Both the position numbers and the translations under genes were made by a program. Under the pieces are notes generated by a model. That model saw nothing but the letters and a program-made list of their open reading frames with translations. It searched no databases and was not told the origin of the DNA. Of a DNA stretch of 49,713 bases, positions 12,649 to 36,842 are shown in pieces. Location: contig WFXF01000044.1 in NCBI GenBank assembly GCA_015490755.1, forward strand, positions 1 through 49,713, written 5' to 3'. The DNA comes from Gammaproteobacteria bacterium. Lineage in GTDB: Bacteria; Pseudomonadota; Gammaproteobacteria; JAADGQ01. Positions within the stretch are counted from its first letter, which is position 1, and each line of letters begins with the position of its first letter.

Positions 12649-12760
12649 TTAAGGAATTTTTTCTCCTGATGCCTGAAGATCCGCATGATACGATGATCGC
12701 ACCATTGGGCCACTGGCGATATTGGTAAAACCCATTTTGTCACCAGTTTTAGCGAAGTTC
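12649..12760 (-). pseudogene. Second copy of the lipA 3' end (last ~37 codons with their own stop)
   Basis: The minus strand from 12760 translates in frame as the LipA C-terminus: [20 protein letters not shown], then RSSYHADLQ, ending ASGEKIP-stop. The intact lipA ends AEGKEVP-stop. The first 77 nt (12684-12760) match lipA 14150-14226 with only two differences; the last dozen codons diverge in DNA but keep similar residues. The homology stops exactly where the inverted repeat at 12761 begins. This looks like the original end of lipA, displaced by an insertion that supplied a new 3' end. Confidence 0.85.
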
Positions 12761-12850
12761 ACCTGGTTCCCATGCTCCAGCGTGGGAACCCATACCGCAA
12801 CATAATAATAACTCCGTATGCATCCCCACGCTGGAGCATGGGGACGAGGT
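12761..12850. repeat. Imperfect inverted repeat, ~27-bp arms
   Basis: Arms 12761-12787 and 12823-12850 are reverse complements with about three mismatches around the core CCATGCTCCAGCGTGGG, with a 35-nt spacer. The core resembles the CCCACGCTCCAGCGTGGG-type palindromes dispersed in many gammaproteobacterial genomes, so it may be a REP/MITE-like element. It abuts the end of the lipA remnant exactly. Bases 12851-12935 show no further feature. Confidence 0.7.
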
Positions 12851-12935
12851 GTGTTTATATGCTTAACTTAATGGCAGTGGGGCTAAGGGGCATGCATTTT
12901 TGCACCGTCCAATGGAGCATTTTAAAAGTTTTTAT

Positions 12936-19067: not shown

Positions 19068-19083
19068 GGAACGTTCACGAAAT
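19068..19083. repeat. Solitary 16-bp copy of the mobile-element end at the moeA-like start
   Basis: GGAACGTTCACGAAAT here is identical to the left end of the palindromic element at 20069, in the same orientation, 1001 bp away. Here it supplies both the AGGA that could serve as ribosome site and the first two bases of the ATG (19082) of the MoeA-like gene. No matching inverted end is visible nearby, so it is a solo terminus or the outer end of a composite unit. Confidence 0.8.
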
Positions 19084-20086
19084 GACTGAAGAAAATCCAC
19101 TGCTGGATGCACAAAAAAAATTTATAGATGCTGTTCCATTTCGTGCAATGGCCCGCGAGAAAAAAGCACTTGAGCAAACGTTGGGTATGACGCTTTATAC
19201 TGATTTGAAATCTCCGGAAAATTCGCCCTCGTATCATCGTGCGATTGTCGAAGGTTTTTTGGTCAACACAGAAGATACACGTGAAGCTTCTGAAGAAAAT
19301 CCTGTCTCTTTTTCTATAGTGGGGGATGTGAGTCCGGGGGATGAATTTTGCCCAGGTTTTTTGAGTGGTCAGGCCGTGTCAGTGGCAACGGGCAGTATTA
19401 TTCTTGAGGGTGATTACTCTGTTGTTCGCATGTGGGAAGCGAAACGTGACGGTAATAACATCACAATTACCCGCCCTTTCCCGCCTCGATTTTTTATTGA
19501 AGAAGAGGGCTGTGAAATCAAACAGGGCAGTGTTGTGATTGAGGCCGGTGCGGTGTTGTCACCCGCTTATTTAGGTGCTGCGGCGAGTTTGGGGCTGGAA
19601 ACTTTAGAGGTTGCATCGCCTCCTAAGGTGACTGTTTTTTCATCAGGTGATGAGGTGATTCATCACTCTGAGGAGATGCGGCCCGGTGCGATACGTGATT
19701 GTAACTCGGTGATGTTAAGTGCTGCTGTGATGGAAGCGGGGGGCGTTCCTGATTTTGCGGGCATTATGAGCGATGATTTTGATGGTTTCGTTCGTAAAGC
19801 ACGAAATGCGTTAAAAACTTCGGATATGTTATTAATTTCGGGTGGAACAGCGGTGGATGGACGGGATTTTATCTCTGACCTGATTCGTGAGCTGGGTGAT
19901 TTGCTGGTGGATGGTGTGCAGATGCGTTCAGGTCGCCCTTTGATTATGGGAGTTTCTGATGGCAAACCCATTGTTTGTGTTGCGGGTTATCCGCCTGAAG
20001 CGTTGCGTGGCTTTGAGCTGTTTGGCGTGATGGCAATAAAGCAATTGTTAGGACGAAACTCTAAATTAGGAACGTTCACGAAATAA
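19082..20086 (+). CDS. MoeA-like molybdopterin-binding protein, short, lacking the C-terminal domain
   Basis: 334 residues, against about 400 for MoeA, which inserts molybdate into molybdopterin. The MoCF core is recognisable: VFSSGDEV (about 185-192), the LLISGGTAVDGRDF block (251-263) and GKPIVCVAGYPPEALRGFEL. The classic MDGYAV loop reads VEGFLV and GVSVG reads GTAVDG, so key acidic positions are altered. The protein ends just after the helix that follows AGYPPE, so the C-terminal beta-barrel domain is absent. Its last codons (LGTFTK-stop) lie in a mobile-element end. It may be a truncated or specialised paralogue; cofactor synthesis activity is doubtful. Confidence 0.8.
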   Translation: MTEENPLLDAQKKFIDAVPFRAMAREKKALEQTLGMTLYTDLKSPENSPSYHRAIVEGFLVNTEDTREASEENPVSFSIVGDVSPGDEFCPGFLSGQAVSVATGSIILEGDYSVVRMWEAKRDGNNITITRPFPPRFFIEEEGCEIKQGSVVIEAGAVLSPAYLGAAASLGLETLEVASPPKVTVFSSGDEVIHHSEEMRPGAIRDCNSVMLSAAVMEAGGVPDFAGIMSDDFDGFVRKARNALKTSDMLLISGGTAVDGRDFISDLIRELGDLLVDGVQMRSGRPLIMGVSDGKPIVCVAGYPPEALRGFELFGVMAIKQLLGRNSKLGTFTK

Positions 20087-20227
20087 CTTCTGCACTCTGA
20101 CTTGCTCTTTTGCTTCGGCTCAAACGATCTCAAGAGGCGCATAGGCCAGCTATGCGCCTCTTGAGATCGTTTGAGCCGAAGCAAAATTTCTACGCCATAG
20201 TTGCAGAAGTTATTCCGTGCACGTTCC
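20069..20227. mobile_element. MITE-like palindromic element with a 37-bp perfect hairpin
   Basis: The ends GGAACGTTCACGAAATAACT and its near-inverse (20203-20227, reading ...TTCCGTGCACGTTCC) form terminal inverted repeats of about 26 bp with two or three differences. TTA flanks both sides as a possible target duplication. The centre is a perfect inverted repeat, arms 20108-20144 and 20150-20186, with the loop GCCAG. There is no transposase, so it is a non-autonomous element. It overlaps the last codons of the MoeA-like gene, and the hairpin may terminate transcription between it and convergent gspN. Confidence 0.85.
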
Positions 20228-20293
20228 TTAGAGAGCAGCTGAGTATACGCTCTGAACAATCATTAATAGTTATTCAGGGCTGTTTTTTATCAT

Positions 20294-21052
20294 TCAAAGC
20301 GTTCCGCTGGTTTTCAATGGGATTTTACCCGTTGGGCCTGCTTTACCAATAAATTGCAGTGCTTGTTTTAGTTCGCGCGGCGCACGGGCTTTGGCTTTTA
20401 GCTCACCTTTGAAATCATAATGGCCATCTACGTTGAGCTGTAGTATGCCATTCATATCAAGTGGGCCTCCTTCTTTGGATTTGATCACACCCTTTGTGCC
20501 ATCGTCAGTCGGTTCAAGTGCCAGTGTGAAATCACCAATTTTTAGTTCACTCAATGCATCAATAACAGCATGGTTCCATGCCAGCCTGCCACTGGCAGAG
20601 GCGACTTTCATGTTATCTGAAAATTCAATCTCTTCAAGCTGACCGTCTAACACGCCTTTTAAATCAACGGGAACTGTTTGTAAAAAGGGTTTTAGGTCAG
20701 TGATCGGCATTTTTATGTCAATATCACTTAAGTTGAGACCTCCAAACAGCCTCCGGTTTAAGGTGAGATTGCCGTAGCCTCCTTCAGTAATAAATTTTGT
20801 ATCGATTGATATTTTTCCCAGCAGCAGTGACAGAGGGCGGAATTCCCAGCTGATGGCCTGGACTCGAAAACCGTTGGGCGCAATGAGTGTTTCTGCGCGG
20901 CCACTCCAGAGTGTGCCATCCACCTGGTAGAGCTTGACTGGAAGAGTGTCTTTAATCTGAGCATGAATAAAATTTGCAGGTATCGTTAATACCAGAAAAA
21001 TAATAAAGGCGATGGCACCTGTCAAAATGTATTTGAAGTATGGTTTTATCAT
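20294..21052 (-). CDS. gspN: Type II secretion system protein GspN
   Basis: 252 residues. A single N-terminal membrane helix (about 9-28) precedes a periplasmic domain with the GspN signature LPVKLYQVDGTLWSGRAETL and, later, LNLSDIDIKMPITDLKPFL. GspN is an accessory inner-membrane component of T2SS whose exact role is unclear and which some systems lack. It is the last gene of the operon, starting directly after the gspM stop with no spacer. A MITE-like hairpin lies downstream and may end the transcript. Confidence 0.92.
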   Translation of the reverse strand: MIKPYFKYILTGAIAFIIFLVLTIPANFIHAQIKDTLPVKLYQVDGTLWSGRAETLIAPNGFRVQAISWEFRPLSLLLGKISIDTKFITEGGYGNLTLNRRLFGGLNLSDIDIKMPITDLKPFLQTVPVDLKGVLDGQLEEIEFSDNMKVASASGRLAWNHAVIDALSELKIGDFTLALEPTDDGTKGVIKSKEGGPLDMNGILQLNVDGHYDFKGELKAKARAPRELKQALQFIGKAGPTGKIPLKTSGTL

Positions 21053-33020: not shown

Positions 33021-33131
33021 AATGTGACCTCAAAGATTTATGTGGGTTCAATAGAATGAAACATGTTTGTTGTTAGGTATATAAGGCATAATAAACCAAT
33101 TATTCCAAGTTGCTATAAGTTTAAAAACAAA

Positions 33132-35861
33132 ATGCCTGATCAATCAAAAACACCGTTCCTTCTTGTGGATGGTTCTTCTTATCTATTTCGTGCGTTTCAT
33201 GCACTTCCTTCACTGGTAAATTCAAAAGGTGAACCTACTGGAGCGATTTACGGTGTCGTTAATATGCTGCGCCGCTTGCTTGAACGCTATAAACCTCAAC
33301 ACCTGGCAGTCGTTTTTGATGCCAAAGGTAAAAATTTTCGCCATGAACTTTATGGTGAATATAAAGCCAATCGACCCCCAATGCCGGATGAGCTCAGAGT
33401 GCAAATTGAGCCACTGCATGAAGTGGTGAGAGCGATGGGTTTGCCTTTGCTGATTATTGATGGTGTTGAAGCGGACGATGTCATTGGTACACTCGCCAGG
33501 CAAGCCAGTGCCAGTAAAATTCCGGTAGTGATTTCCACAGGTGATAAAGATATGGCACAACTGGTGAATGAGCATGTCACCCTGATTAATACCATGACGG
33601 ATACGTTGCTTGATCCACAGGGTGTATTGGAAAAATTTGGTGTCAAGCCTGAACAGATTATTGATTATCTGGCATTGGTGGGGGATAGCTCGGACAATAT
33701 TCCCGGTGTACCCAAGGTAGGACCAAAAACTGCGGTTAAATGGTTGGCATCTTATGAAAGTATGAATAATATAATTGCGCACGCGGCTGAGATTAAAGGC
33801 AAAGTGGGTGAAAATCTGCGAGTTTCGCTGGATCAACTTACCCTGTCATATGAACTTGCTACCATTAAGTGTGATGTGGATCTGGATGAAACGCCCGAGA
33901 CATTGTGTCGTCATGCCGAAGACCATGAGCGGCTGCTAGAGTTGTTTCAAGGGTTTGGCTTTAAAAGCTGGCTGAATAAATTGCAGTCTGAACCTGTAGC
34001 CAATGAGGATCATGGTGATGCTCAATCTAAAAAAGTAGAAGAAGAGACAAATAGAGCTCAATACGATACGGTTTTCAGTGAATCTGTTTTCGAAGAGTGG
34101 TTGCAGCGTTTAGAGCAAGCTGAGCTATTTTCTTTTGATCTTGAAACCACATCGCTTGATTATATGGAAGCAGAAATTGTTGGAGTTTCATTTTCTGTTG
34201 AACCTGGTGAGGCAGCTTATGTGCCCGTAGCACATGATTATATTGATGTGCCCGAACAGTTGAAACGGGATTTTGTACTCGAAAAACTACGTCCATTACT
34301 TGAAAATGAAAACCAAAAAAAGGTAGGTCAAAACCTTAAATACGATATGAGTGTGCTGGCGAACTATGGGATCACTCTAAAAGGTATTGCTTTTGATACG
34401 ATGCTTGAATCTTATGTTCTAAATAGTACTGCAACACGTCATAACATGGATGCATTGGCCAAAAAATATCTGAACTATCAAACAACACATTTTGAAGATA
34501 TTGCAGGCAAAGGGGGAAAGCAGCTCAAATTTAATCATATAGCGATTGAGCAAGCTGCACCGTATGCGGCTGAAGATGCTGATGTGACTTTACGATTGCA
34601 TCAAGTGTTATGGCCGAAGGTGAGTGAAGATAGCAAGCGACAGGAGTTGTTTGAAAGTATGGAAATGCCGTTGCTGCCTGTGCTATCAAAAATGGAGCGG
34701 CATGGTGTTTTGCTTGATAGCGATATGTTACATAAGCAGAGTCATGAGTTGATGGAGCGTATGGTTGAAATTGAAAAAGAGGCTTATGTGCAAGCGGGCG
34801 AAGCGTTTAACCTCTCGTCACCGAAACAGATTCAAGTAATTTTGTATGAAAAACTGGGTTTGCCTGTTTTGAAGAAAACCCCGAAAAAACAGCCGTCAAC
34901 AGCTGAAACTGTCTTGCAGGAGTTGGCGCTGGACTATCCTTTGCCTAAATTGATTTTGGAGTATCGTTCACTCAGCAAACTAAAATCGACCTATACGGAA
35001 AAGTTGCCCAAACAAAAAAATGCCCGAACCGGGCGAGTGCATACCTCCTATCATCAGGCTGTAACAGCAACAGGCCGATTATCATCAAGTGATCCAAATT
35101 TACAGAATATTCCCATTCGTAGTGCTGAAGGGCGACGTATTCGGCAAGCGTTCATTGCTCCACAGGGCTATAAAATCGTTGCTGCTGATTATTCGCAAAT
35201 TGAACTGCGTATTATGGCGCACCTTTCTCAAGATCAAGGGTTATTGACCGCTTTTACTGAGGGTGTTGATATTCATCAAGCAACGGCGGCGGAAATGTTT
35301 TCTATTGCTATCGATGAAGTCACAACAGATCAGCGCCGTAGTGCTAAAGCGATTAATTTTGGTTTGATTTATGGGATGTCTGCGTTTGGCCTGGCGCGTC
35401 AGCTCAATGTTGATCGTAGTGTTGCACAGGCTTATATTGATCGCTATTTTGCGCGCTATCCAGGTGTTAAAATTTTTATGGATGCGAAGCGTCAAGAGGC
35501 GCATGATCAGGGTTATGTGGAGACTGTTTCGGGACGTCGCCTCTATTTGCCGGATATTAATTCACGCAATGGTCAGCGTCGTCAATATGCCGAACGAGCA
35601 GCGATTAATGCGCCGATGCAAGGGACGGCTGCGGATATCATTAAACTTGCGATGATCAACGTAAATCAATGGTTGGTGGACAGTCAAATAGATGCGTACC
35701 TGATTATGCAGGTTCACGATGAATTAGTGCTGGAAGTTTCGATAGGTGTATTGGATGAAGCTATTGATCAGGTCAGGCATTGCATGAGTCAGGCGCTTGA
35801 GCTCAGTGTGCCGCTGATTGTTGATATCGGTGTGGGTGAAAATTGGGATGAGGCGCATTAG
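33132..35861 (+). CDS. polA: DNA polymerase I
   Basis: 909 residues from the ATG at 33132 (MPDQSKTPFLLVDGSSYLFR). The frame is open further upstream to 33063, but those residues do not fit the family. It has a 5'-3' exonuclease domain (to about 290), then a 3'-5' proofreading domain with the catalytic pair Asp336/Glu338 (FDLETTSLDY). Polymerase motif A is DYSQIELR with Asp686, motif B is RRSAKAINFGLIYG near 735-748, and motif C is VHDE with Asp863. All activities look intact. It fills Okazaki gaps and acts in repair. A MITE lies six bases after the stop. Confidence 0.98.
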   Translation: MPDQSKTPFLLVDGSSYLFRAFHALPSLVNSKGEPTGAIYGVVNMLRRLLERYKPQHLAVVFDAKGKNFRHELYGEYKANRPPMPDELRVQIEPLHEVVRAMGLPLLIIDGVEADDVIGTLARQASASKIPVVISTGDKDMAQLVNEHVTLINTMTDTLLDPQGVLEKFGVKPEQIIDYLALVGDSSDNIPGVPKVGPKTAVKWLASYESMNNIIAHAAEIKGKVGENLRVSLDQLTLSYELATIKCDVDLDETPETLCRHAEDHERLLELFQGFGFKSWLNKLQSEPVANEDHGDAQSKKVEEETNRAQYDTVFSESVFEEWLQRLEQAELFSFDLETTSLDYMEAEIVGVSFSVEPGEAAYVPVAHDYIDVPEQLKRDFVLEKLRPLLENENQKKVGQNLKYDMSVLANYGITLKGIAFDTMLESYVLNSTATRHNMDALAKKYLNYQTTHFEDIAGKGGKQLKFNHIAIEQAAPYAAEDADVTLRLHQVLWPKVSEDSKRQELFESMEMPLLPVLSKMERHGVLLDSDMLHKQSHELMERMVEIEKEAYVQAGEAFNLSSPKQIQVILYEKLGLPVLKKTPKKQPSTAETVLQELALDYPLPKLILEYRSLSKLKSTYTEKLPKQKNARTGRVHTSYHQAVTATGRLSSSDPNLQNIPIRSAEGRRIRQAFIAPQGYKIVAADYSQIELRIMAHLSQDQGLLTAFTEGVDIHQATAAEMFSIAIDEVTTDQRRSAKAINFGLIYGMSAFGLARQLNVDRSVAQAYIDRYFARYPGVKIFMDAKRQEAHDQGYVETVSGRRLYLPDINSRNGQRRQYAERAAINAPMQGTAADIIKLAMINVNQWLVDSQIDAYLIMQVHDELVLEVSIGVLDEAIDQVRHCMSQALELSVPLIVDIGVGENWDEAH

Positions 35862-35866
35862 CTCAT

Positions 35867-36011
35867 ATTTAATATCAGGAGCTCCCGCTAGAAAATGTTT
35901 CGCTTTAAAATCAATACATTAGGATTTTACTCTTCGCAAATGCTTTGGTGATATTTTATTATTTATCAATGAGTTATGCCTGTTTTGTAGCGGGAGCTCC
36001 TGATTTAATAT
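35867..36011. mobile_element. 127-bp MITE with 15-bp perfect terminal repeats and 9-bp target duplication
   Basis: The element spans 35876-36002. CAGGAGCTCCCGCTA at the left end is exactly repeated in inverse at the right end (35988-36002). ATTTAATAT flanks it directly on both sides (35867-35875 and 36003-36011), a perfect 9-bp target-site duplication. The inside is AT-rich and non-coding. It is a non-autonomous element moved by an unidentified transposase that makes 9-bp duplications. It sits directly behind polA. Confidence 0.92.
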
Positions 36012-36065: not shown

Positions 36066-36842
36066 CTATCGAGCTTCTTGCTTGATTTTGCCCGTTGCAC
36101 TATACCAGTTGCTCTCTGGATGTTTTTTCTCACGTTTGATGATGGCTTTTCTGATTTTAGACTCCAGTTTTGTTACAGAGATATCATCATATTGGGGTAT
36201 ATAGGCTAAAACAGGTTCTTCAATTAACAGTAAGATGGCTGCAGCTTTAGAATCTTCTGCATGATTGAGAAGAGAGGTGATCAATTTTTTATCCTGCATA
36301 ATGGTAATGTCTTTTCCTCGTAATGTGCCGCCTTTGGTGACATGTTTACGTAGAGGGGCGATCATGCGTTTCATTGCATCCAATGCAATACTCCGAGTTT
36401 TTTTGTTCTCTGAATTGATGAATTCGATAATCAGTGGAGCATCATTAATATCTTCAATTTGTTTGAAAACTTGCTTTAAAAGCTTTTGTGCTGCTTTTGC
36501 AACATCGGGTTTATCCGCAAGTCGTGTGAAGTAAAGTAAATCATTAAGGTCTTTGGTAACAATACTGTCTTCAAGAACCTCCATATTGCCCTGATACTGT
36601 TTTTTATCTCTTTTTGCACCGGTATAAGAGTACTCTTGAAGGTGGCTGAAAGTGGCCAGCATTAAAGCAAGTTTGCTATTTTTATCTCTTTTACGATCTT
36701 TTACGAGCTCGATTACTTTTTCATAATCATCGTTTTCGAAGTACTGTTTAGCACTTGATTGCCAATTGGCGCTTACTGAAGTGGATGCAAAAGTGATAAA
36801 CAATAATATGAGAACATGTGTTGTCAGGTTGGGTTTTTTCAT
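36066..36842 (-). CDS. Secreted alpha-helical protein of unknown function
   Basis: 258 residues. A signal peptide (to about residue 25, ...STSVSANWQ) precedes a charged, helix-rich region. FENDDYEKVIELVKDRKR resembles a TPR-like unit, and repeated two-helix stretches (about 95-160) suggest a HEAT/Armadillo-like solenoid. No catalytic motif or lipobox is visible. It is alone between the MITE and a long region of transposase debris, with no obvious operon partner. I do not recognise it. Confidence 0.7.
   Translation of the reverse strand: MKKPNLTTHVLILLFITFASTSVSANWQSSAKQYFENDDYEKVIELVKDRKRDKNSKLALMLATFSHLQEYSYTGAKRDKKQYQGNMEVLEDSIVTKDLNDLLYFTRLADKPDVAKAAQKLLKQVFKQIEDINDAPLIIEFINSENKKTRSIALDAMKRMIAPLRKHVTKGGTLRGKDITIMQDKKLITSLLNHAEDSKAAAILLLIEEPVLAYIPQYDDISVTKLESKIRKAIIKREKKHPESNWYSATGKIKQEAR

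Follow-up and report, generated by a model that had tools for sequence, protein, structure and literature searches.

A Lineage-Specific MITE-Type Insertion with a 9-bp Target Duplication between polA and a Convergent Gene of a Gammaproteobacterium

Results and Discussion

A 127-bp element in a gammaproteobacterial genome, here called W, is very probably (about 0.92, judged from sequence) a nonautonomous MITE-type DNA element that entered the spacer between polA and P0002, two convergent genes. The insertion is real and lineage-specific, and W represents a group of MITEs that is new but of a kind already known. Its paired IHF-like sites and missing parent give this group some mild interest; it is otherwise ordinary bacterial mobile DNA. 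The window, meaning the whole stretch of 49,713 nucleotides analyzed, contains the following features at this locus:

33063 to 35861, plus strand: polA (DNA polymerase I), the upstream neighbor, outside the element; from the ORF list and family matches.
35867 to 35875: left copy of the target duplication, ATTTAATAT, identical to the right copy at 9/9 positions; a single target in the same-genus genome G001.
35876 to 36002: the 127-bp nonautonomous element W; from its ends, the chance control, the empty site in G001, and colinearity with copy B and two copies in genome G071.
35876 to 35890, plus strand: left terminal inverted repeat, CAGGAGCTCCCGCTA; from direct reading and an assembly-wide search for the end.
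35988 to 36002, minus strand: right terminal inverted repeat, the same over 15 bases; from direct reading and the same search.
36003 to 36011: right copy of the target duplication, ATTTAATAT; from direct reading.
36066 to 36842, minus strand: P0002 (258 aa), the convergent gene, outside the element, with a homolog in G001 that is 87% identical and without a Pfam or NCBIfam match.

Structure of the Element

Read directly, W starts with CAGGAGCTCCCGCTA and ends with TAGCGGGAGCTCCTG; the inverted ends pair at 15/15 positions, and 19 of the first 20 bases pair. When the whole window was scanned for an exact 9-bp direct repeat around inverted ends (at least 12/15 pairing, span 60–400 bp), the W locus was the sole match, and 0 of 60 dinucleotide-preserving shuffles of the window gave any; the direct reading and this control confirm the first-pass annotation in its description of a 127-bp MITE with perfect ends and a perfect 9-bp duplication. 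Within the 2.63-Mb assembly, the 15-base end occurs with zero mismatches only at the two ends of W, and with two mismatches at one more place. At 127 bp, W has no room for a transposase and is an element of the MITE type; the ORF list shows no ORF of 80 codons within it. It combines the features expected of a bacterial MITE, being short and free of a transposase gene, and the MITE reading is further backed by the terminal inverted repeats, the 9-bp target duplication, the empty site in G001, and other copies and elements with 9-bp duplications of their own.

An Empty Site in a Genome of the Same Genus

G001 carries polA and the P0002 homolog in the same convergent order as the window, and its alignment lacks precisely W and one copy of the duplication: a single target, AGTAAATAT followed by GCC, stands where the window has ATTTAATAT followed by GCC. 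The polA–P0002 spacer measures 68 bp if W is removed, compared with 49 bp in G001. As the G001 spacer is otherwise diverged, the empty site rests on its position and on a short shared AATATGCC; found between the same convergent neighbors, it identifies W as an insertion and provides the empty site in relatives that had been proposed as a check. An identical locus in distant relatives, which the same annotation had named as evidence of an old conserved structure, was not seen in a DNA search of 185 genomes.

The exact ends and duplication had also been taken to imply recent movement. This stands insofar as the insertion of W postdates the divergence from G001, barring a clean loss of W there; a closer dating does not, with no near-identical sister copy found in the assembly. 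Copy B (below) retains a perfect 9-bp duplication despite decayed ends, which makes a perfect duplication a poor measure of age, and the age of the insertion is only bounded by the split from G001. For this genome, W stands as one insertion specific to the lineage, placed where two genes converge.

The polA stop codon (TAG, 35859–35861) is separated from the left duplication copy by 5 bases, where six had been counted previously. W might instead be immobile, serving polA as a permanent regulatory hairpin or terminator, as would suit its place between convergent genes and the predicted folding of its RNA, in which the ends form a long stem from either strand (z −4.2 and −4.8 for the two strands). 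However, W is missing from G001 and is surrounded by an exact 9-bp duplication, other copies exist elsewhere with different flanks, and the window contains no Rfam family at gathering level; as the sole explanation, a hairpin or terminator is refuted by the G001 empty site, and we consider it scarcely credible. When scanned, the polA–P0002 spacer showed no intrinsic terminator, and a hairpin outside W was no better than shuffles (z −1.0). A promoter-like site lies inside W at 35933–35962 (9 of 12), one of 6 such sites in 1.3 kb against 4.0 expected. W may affect the 3′ processing of polA mRNA, as the first-pass annotation suggested, but none of these predictions points to such an effect. Concerning polA itself, the family matches start at residue 32–33 of the listed ORF (window 33063–33160), and the true start may therefore be a later ATG.

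Copies in the Source Genome and in G071

One further copy, B, was found in the source genome (G000) at G000:C41:114186–114311 (L014, L195), and is 126 bp long and flanked by the duplication ATGTCGGGT at 9/9. B is identical to W at 83/127 positions with one 1-base gap, and its ends are decayed. No third convincing copy in this genome came from the model searches, in which few candidates were scored per genome; a third place (E 0.017, L189) was dropped for want of paired ends. The genome-wide search for the W ends that had been suggested at the outset returned the exact end only at the W locus. Nothing seen in its own genome presents W as a recently amplified element with many copies, and the one other copy found is much diverged. 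By eye, copy B (L014:1495–1620 and flanks) lies within an intergenic palindrome of type GTCGGGTTACGCTGCGCTAACCCGAC.

A DNA search with the whole element gave matches in 6 of 185 genomes including its own; in the other five these were 23–38 bp of an AT-rich ATTTATCAATGAGTTAT stretch and no element. One of the matches to this stretch lies, by eye, near apparent integrase and tRNA genes. A model of W and B, searched against the 185 genomes, revealed two full-length copies in G071 (G071a and G071b), with duplications of 9/9 and 7/9. At E 0.1 this model listed 34 of the 185 genomes, from which G000 and G071 were kept (E 2e-10 or better) and the others dropped. An alignment of W, B, and the two G071 copies spans 127 columns, of which 61 are invariant, and needs a single 1-base gap; the relatedness of their interiors lies well above shuffles (z 5.9–7.8). 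G071 is the only other genome found with clear interior relatives of W. Because the model searches and first looks scored few candidates per genome, copies may be missed. On L219 of G071, a minus-strand ORF (1723–2249) resembles, by eye, a group II intron reverse transcriptase.

Elements with Similar Ends in Other Genomes

A second model, applied to 369 genomes of the class at E 0.01, gave matches in five (G000, G071, G307, G052, and G299); the match in G299 (103 bp, E 0.0046) was dropped because its locus has no credible ends. The G052 element is 126 bp long with a 9/9 duplication. An element of 110 bp with ends like those of W and a 9/9 duplication is found in G180, on contig JAADHS010000144.1 ("Gammaproteobacteria bacterium isolate M_MetaBat.201"), where it (L044:7288–7397) interrupts a short frame that we take, by its motif, for a probable PIN-domain gene. 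A pattern search of genome contigs for AGCTCCCGCTA ends 72–102 bp apart returned this contig only, in a collection from which the window's own records may be excluded.

Matches to the end are in clear excess over control matches only in G307 (35 vs. 1), G071 (6 vs. 1), and G052 (4 vs. 1), with no clear excess in G000 (5 vs. 5), G001 (6 vs. 4), G079 (2 vs. 3), or G180 (4 vs. 7). G307 is a 58%-complete draft, from which we fetched 17 regions: 11 held new elements, 1 was the L199 element again, and 5 held none. Among the 18 G307 elements examined, 15 are of 125–126 bp and 3 of 236–244 bp with a nested palindrome. Where both flanks were present, the duplication matches at 7/9 or better in 13 of 17 elements and below 7/9 in the remaining 4, and it is perfect in 5; the flanks are on average 0.73 identical at 9 bp compared with 0.19–0.25 at 5–8 and 10–12 bp, leaving 9 bp as the sole register that stands out. 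Three G307 copies contain a palindromic insert with TATACC/GGTATA termini (L229:648–884, L241:263–498, and L244:488–731); this insert looks like a small mobile element of another type that has nested within the host element.

Across the 24 listed elements (W, B, the G071 copies, those of G052 and G180, and the G307 set, whose ends were paired without a length rule), 20 have a length of 125–127 bp, the exceptions being G180 and the three G307 copies with the nested palindrome. As judged from their sequences, what is certain to be common beyond W, B, and G071 is the ends, the duplication length, and mostly the element length (not in G180). The elements of G052, G180, and G307 may accordingly be classed in two ways. 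They could be unrelated MITEs whose transposases have a similar end preference, with the family of W consisting of W, B, and the two G071 copies. Compared with these four, the interiors of the G052 and G180 elements score within or near noise and two G307 copies reach z 1.3–3.6 (in the matching orientation), and the G180 element is 110 bp long. This reading sits poorly with the length of 125–127 bp in most elements, and with an AAAGTTTACGAAA-like stretch mid-element in W, B, G071, G052, and G307, a stretch that the model R2 may have favored; we regard it as quite conceivable, if somewhat short of even odds. The wrong-strand score of W, from its ends alone, is 34.6 bits, little less than the second-model matches score in G307 (36.8–45.8 bits) and G052 (36.9 bits), which limits the case for kinship with these elements.

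A further locus of G052 (L154:1474–1601; 24.8 bits) has other ends and no duplication and was rejected as a CAG-ended element; L154 carries the paired IHF-like motif, with TAACTCATTGAT present twice in direct orientation at a spacing of about 55 bp, which the model used for the search favors. Three plasmid records matched the polA end only, none matched the G180 flank, and phages gave no match. Viral contigs contained the exact end in 16 stretches and a looser end in 69, with pairing yielding weak pairs only (L030, L031, L092, and L104; 4–6 end mismatches, duplications of 7–8/9), which we take as chance; the paired-end pattern occurred in 7 viral stretches, in 0/7 of which the duplication exceeded 4/9.

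Copies within Open Reading Frames

G071a and the G052 element contain no stops, and the open frames around them have 357 and 1041 codons, respectively, the latter frame being cut by the fetched stretch; both are in one orientation and phase, and they make up 2 of the 24 elements inside long open frames. An insertion of 126 + 9 = 135 bp corresponds to 45 codons and keeps the frame. The frame-preserving length and the two stop-free copies would also suit an in-frame coding element like the Rickettsia palindromic elements (RPE), spreading inside proteins and keeping a 42-codon frame. We consider this very improbable, given that there is no third-position excess (differences at third/first/second positions number 3/4/4 for the two G071 copies and 14/19/12 for B compared with G071a), that W has stops and a length of 127 bp and B has a stop, and that the G307 copies have none of these frames. 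G071b is in an open stretch of 450 codons but, as far as the presumed start is correct, is probably located upstream of the coding region of its HlyD-like gene, and no homolog of the host proteins lacking the insert was found. The frame is broken in W and B, which together with the lack of a third-position excess speaks against a conserved encoded peptide as in RPE; the in-frame copies are read as tolerance and not as a coding element.

Predicted IHF-Like Sites and Transposition

Ends and duplications of this kind are, in the standard reading, the work of a trans-acting transposase with a 9-base staggered cut. For W, such a transposase would act in trans on ends of the form CAGNANYTCYCGNT and make cuts in the target staggered by 9 bases, and the gaps would then be filled by repair to give the 9-bp duplication. 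Two predicted sites for a host protein are located inside the element:

35909 to 35921, plus strand: matches the IHF consensus WATCAANNNNTTR perfectly; element positions 34–46 (consensus as quoted in PMC5896051).
35964 to 35976, plus strand: again matches the IHF consensus perfectly, at a distance of 55 bp from the first site; element positions 89–101, from the consensus scan.

W and G071a have two perfect IHF-like sites each, which 0 of 300 shuffles reproduced in either case. The pair spaced by 55 bp is found in five elements (W, G071a, B, G071b, and G052), with sites that are off by one in B (both), G071b (one), and G052 (one; the other perfect; on the other strand). The G180 element has no IHF-like sites, and the two tested G307 copies lack the pair and have no perfect sites. 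W, B, G071a, and G071b share descent, and their IHF-like sites are therefore not independent. The stiffness length of DNA is about 150 bp, and with 127 bp falling below it, help in bending might be expected. In the subgroup of W, a bending protein such as IHF could fold the short DNA at the two predicted sites so that the ends meet, a possible but doubtful scheme. Unlikely in our judgment is the broader proposal of an old, scattered lineage held at about 126 bp (12 turns of 10.5 bp) by such two-site folding by a host protein, with copies also settling in frame. Being so short and having two phased IHF-like sites, W could serve to test how a short transposon folds.

Search for a Parent Transposase

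Neither an autonomous parent nor a transposase with W-type ends was found in the loci searched, so that the parent IS envisaged in the first-pass annotation did not come to light there; draft assemblies lose repeats. PF01609 transposases were present in 4 of 6 genomes, at 14 loci in all, and no locus had W-type ends; a three-mismatch end in L046 from this search lies inside a coding frame. Among ORFs adjoining 12 unpaired ends, no transposase was recognized by eye.

It is decidedly unlikely that W arose by deletion from an ISAs1-family insertion sequence and is mobilized by an ISAs1 transposase. ISAs1-family elements of related genomes share the CAGG start and have CGC slightly further in, and PF13808 matches are present in 18 of 143 relatives, including G071 and G052. 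Their ends, however, are CAGGGCAAACGCATC or near, compared with CAGGAGCTCCCGCTA in W; clean duplications were seen at 3 of 30 PF13808 loci, each of 10 bp compared with the 9 bp at W, and neither the source genome nor G001 has a PF13808 match at E 1e-5. The duplication length of ISAs1 elements is 8–10 bp. The CAGNANYTCYCGNT-type ends together with the 9-bp duplication provide a handle for hunting an unrecognized transposase.

Comparison with Known Elements

Both in-frame copies and IHF sites have been described before in bacterial MITEs (PMC10969869, PMC2229807, and PMC5896051). Like the W group, RPE are short (105–146 bp) with inverted ends and some in-frame copies, but their duplication entry is "?" where W has a clear 9 bp (PMC10969869, PMC2229807); compared by description, the W group further differs in having no conserved peptide shown and a gammaproteobacterial host. 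The ERIC sequences of enterobacteria share with W a length of 127 bp, inverted ends, and reported in-frame copies, but are described with TA termini and 7-bp contiguous end repeats, whereas W lacks TA at both termini, having CAG/CTG ends instead, and has a 9-bp duplication (PMC2229807). QMITE2 of Coxiella burnetii resembles W in its gammaproteobacterial host, direct repeats of 7–9 bp, and frequent location in 3′ untranslated regions, and is unlike W by description in its 150–190 bp length, end repeats of 23–29 bp, GTAG REP, and lack of an IHF site in the excerpts (PMC5896051). The Correia elements of Neisseria are MITEs with an IHF site in their longer form, comparable to the IHF-like sites of W; they measure 105–155 bp with TA-type ends and one IHF site, in contrast to the two predicted IHF-like sites 55 bp apart in W (PMC2229807, PMC10969869). 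In the open-licence PMC literature, each of two end sequences retrieved one unrelated mouse paper from paper text, and no title or abstract described the group (9-bp-duplication MITEs, in-frame copies, IHF, gammaproteobacterial drafts).

Other Repeats in the Window

Two further structures were observed away from the W locus. A nested palindrome at 20068–20228 has perfect 37-bp arms (20108–20144 and 20150–20186) around a 5-base loop, with outer arms of 27 bp (93%) at 20068–20094 and 20202–20228, and is flanked by the listed ORFs 19082–20086 and 20294–21052. An inverted repeat at 12760–12851 has 36-nt arms, 86% complementary, and a 20-nt loop.
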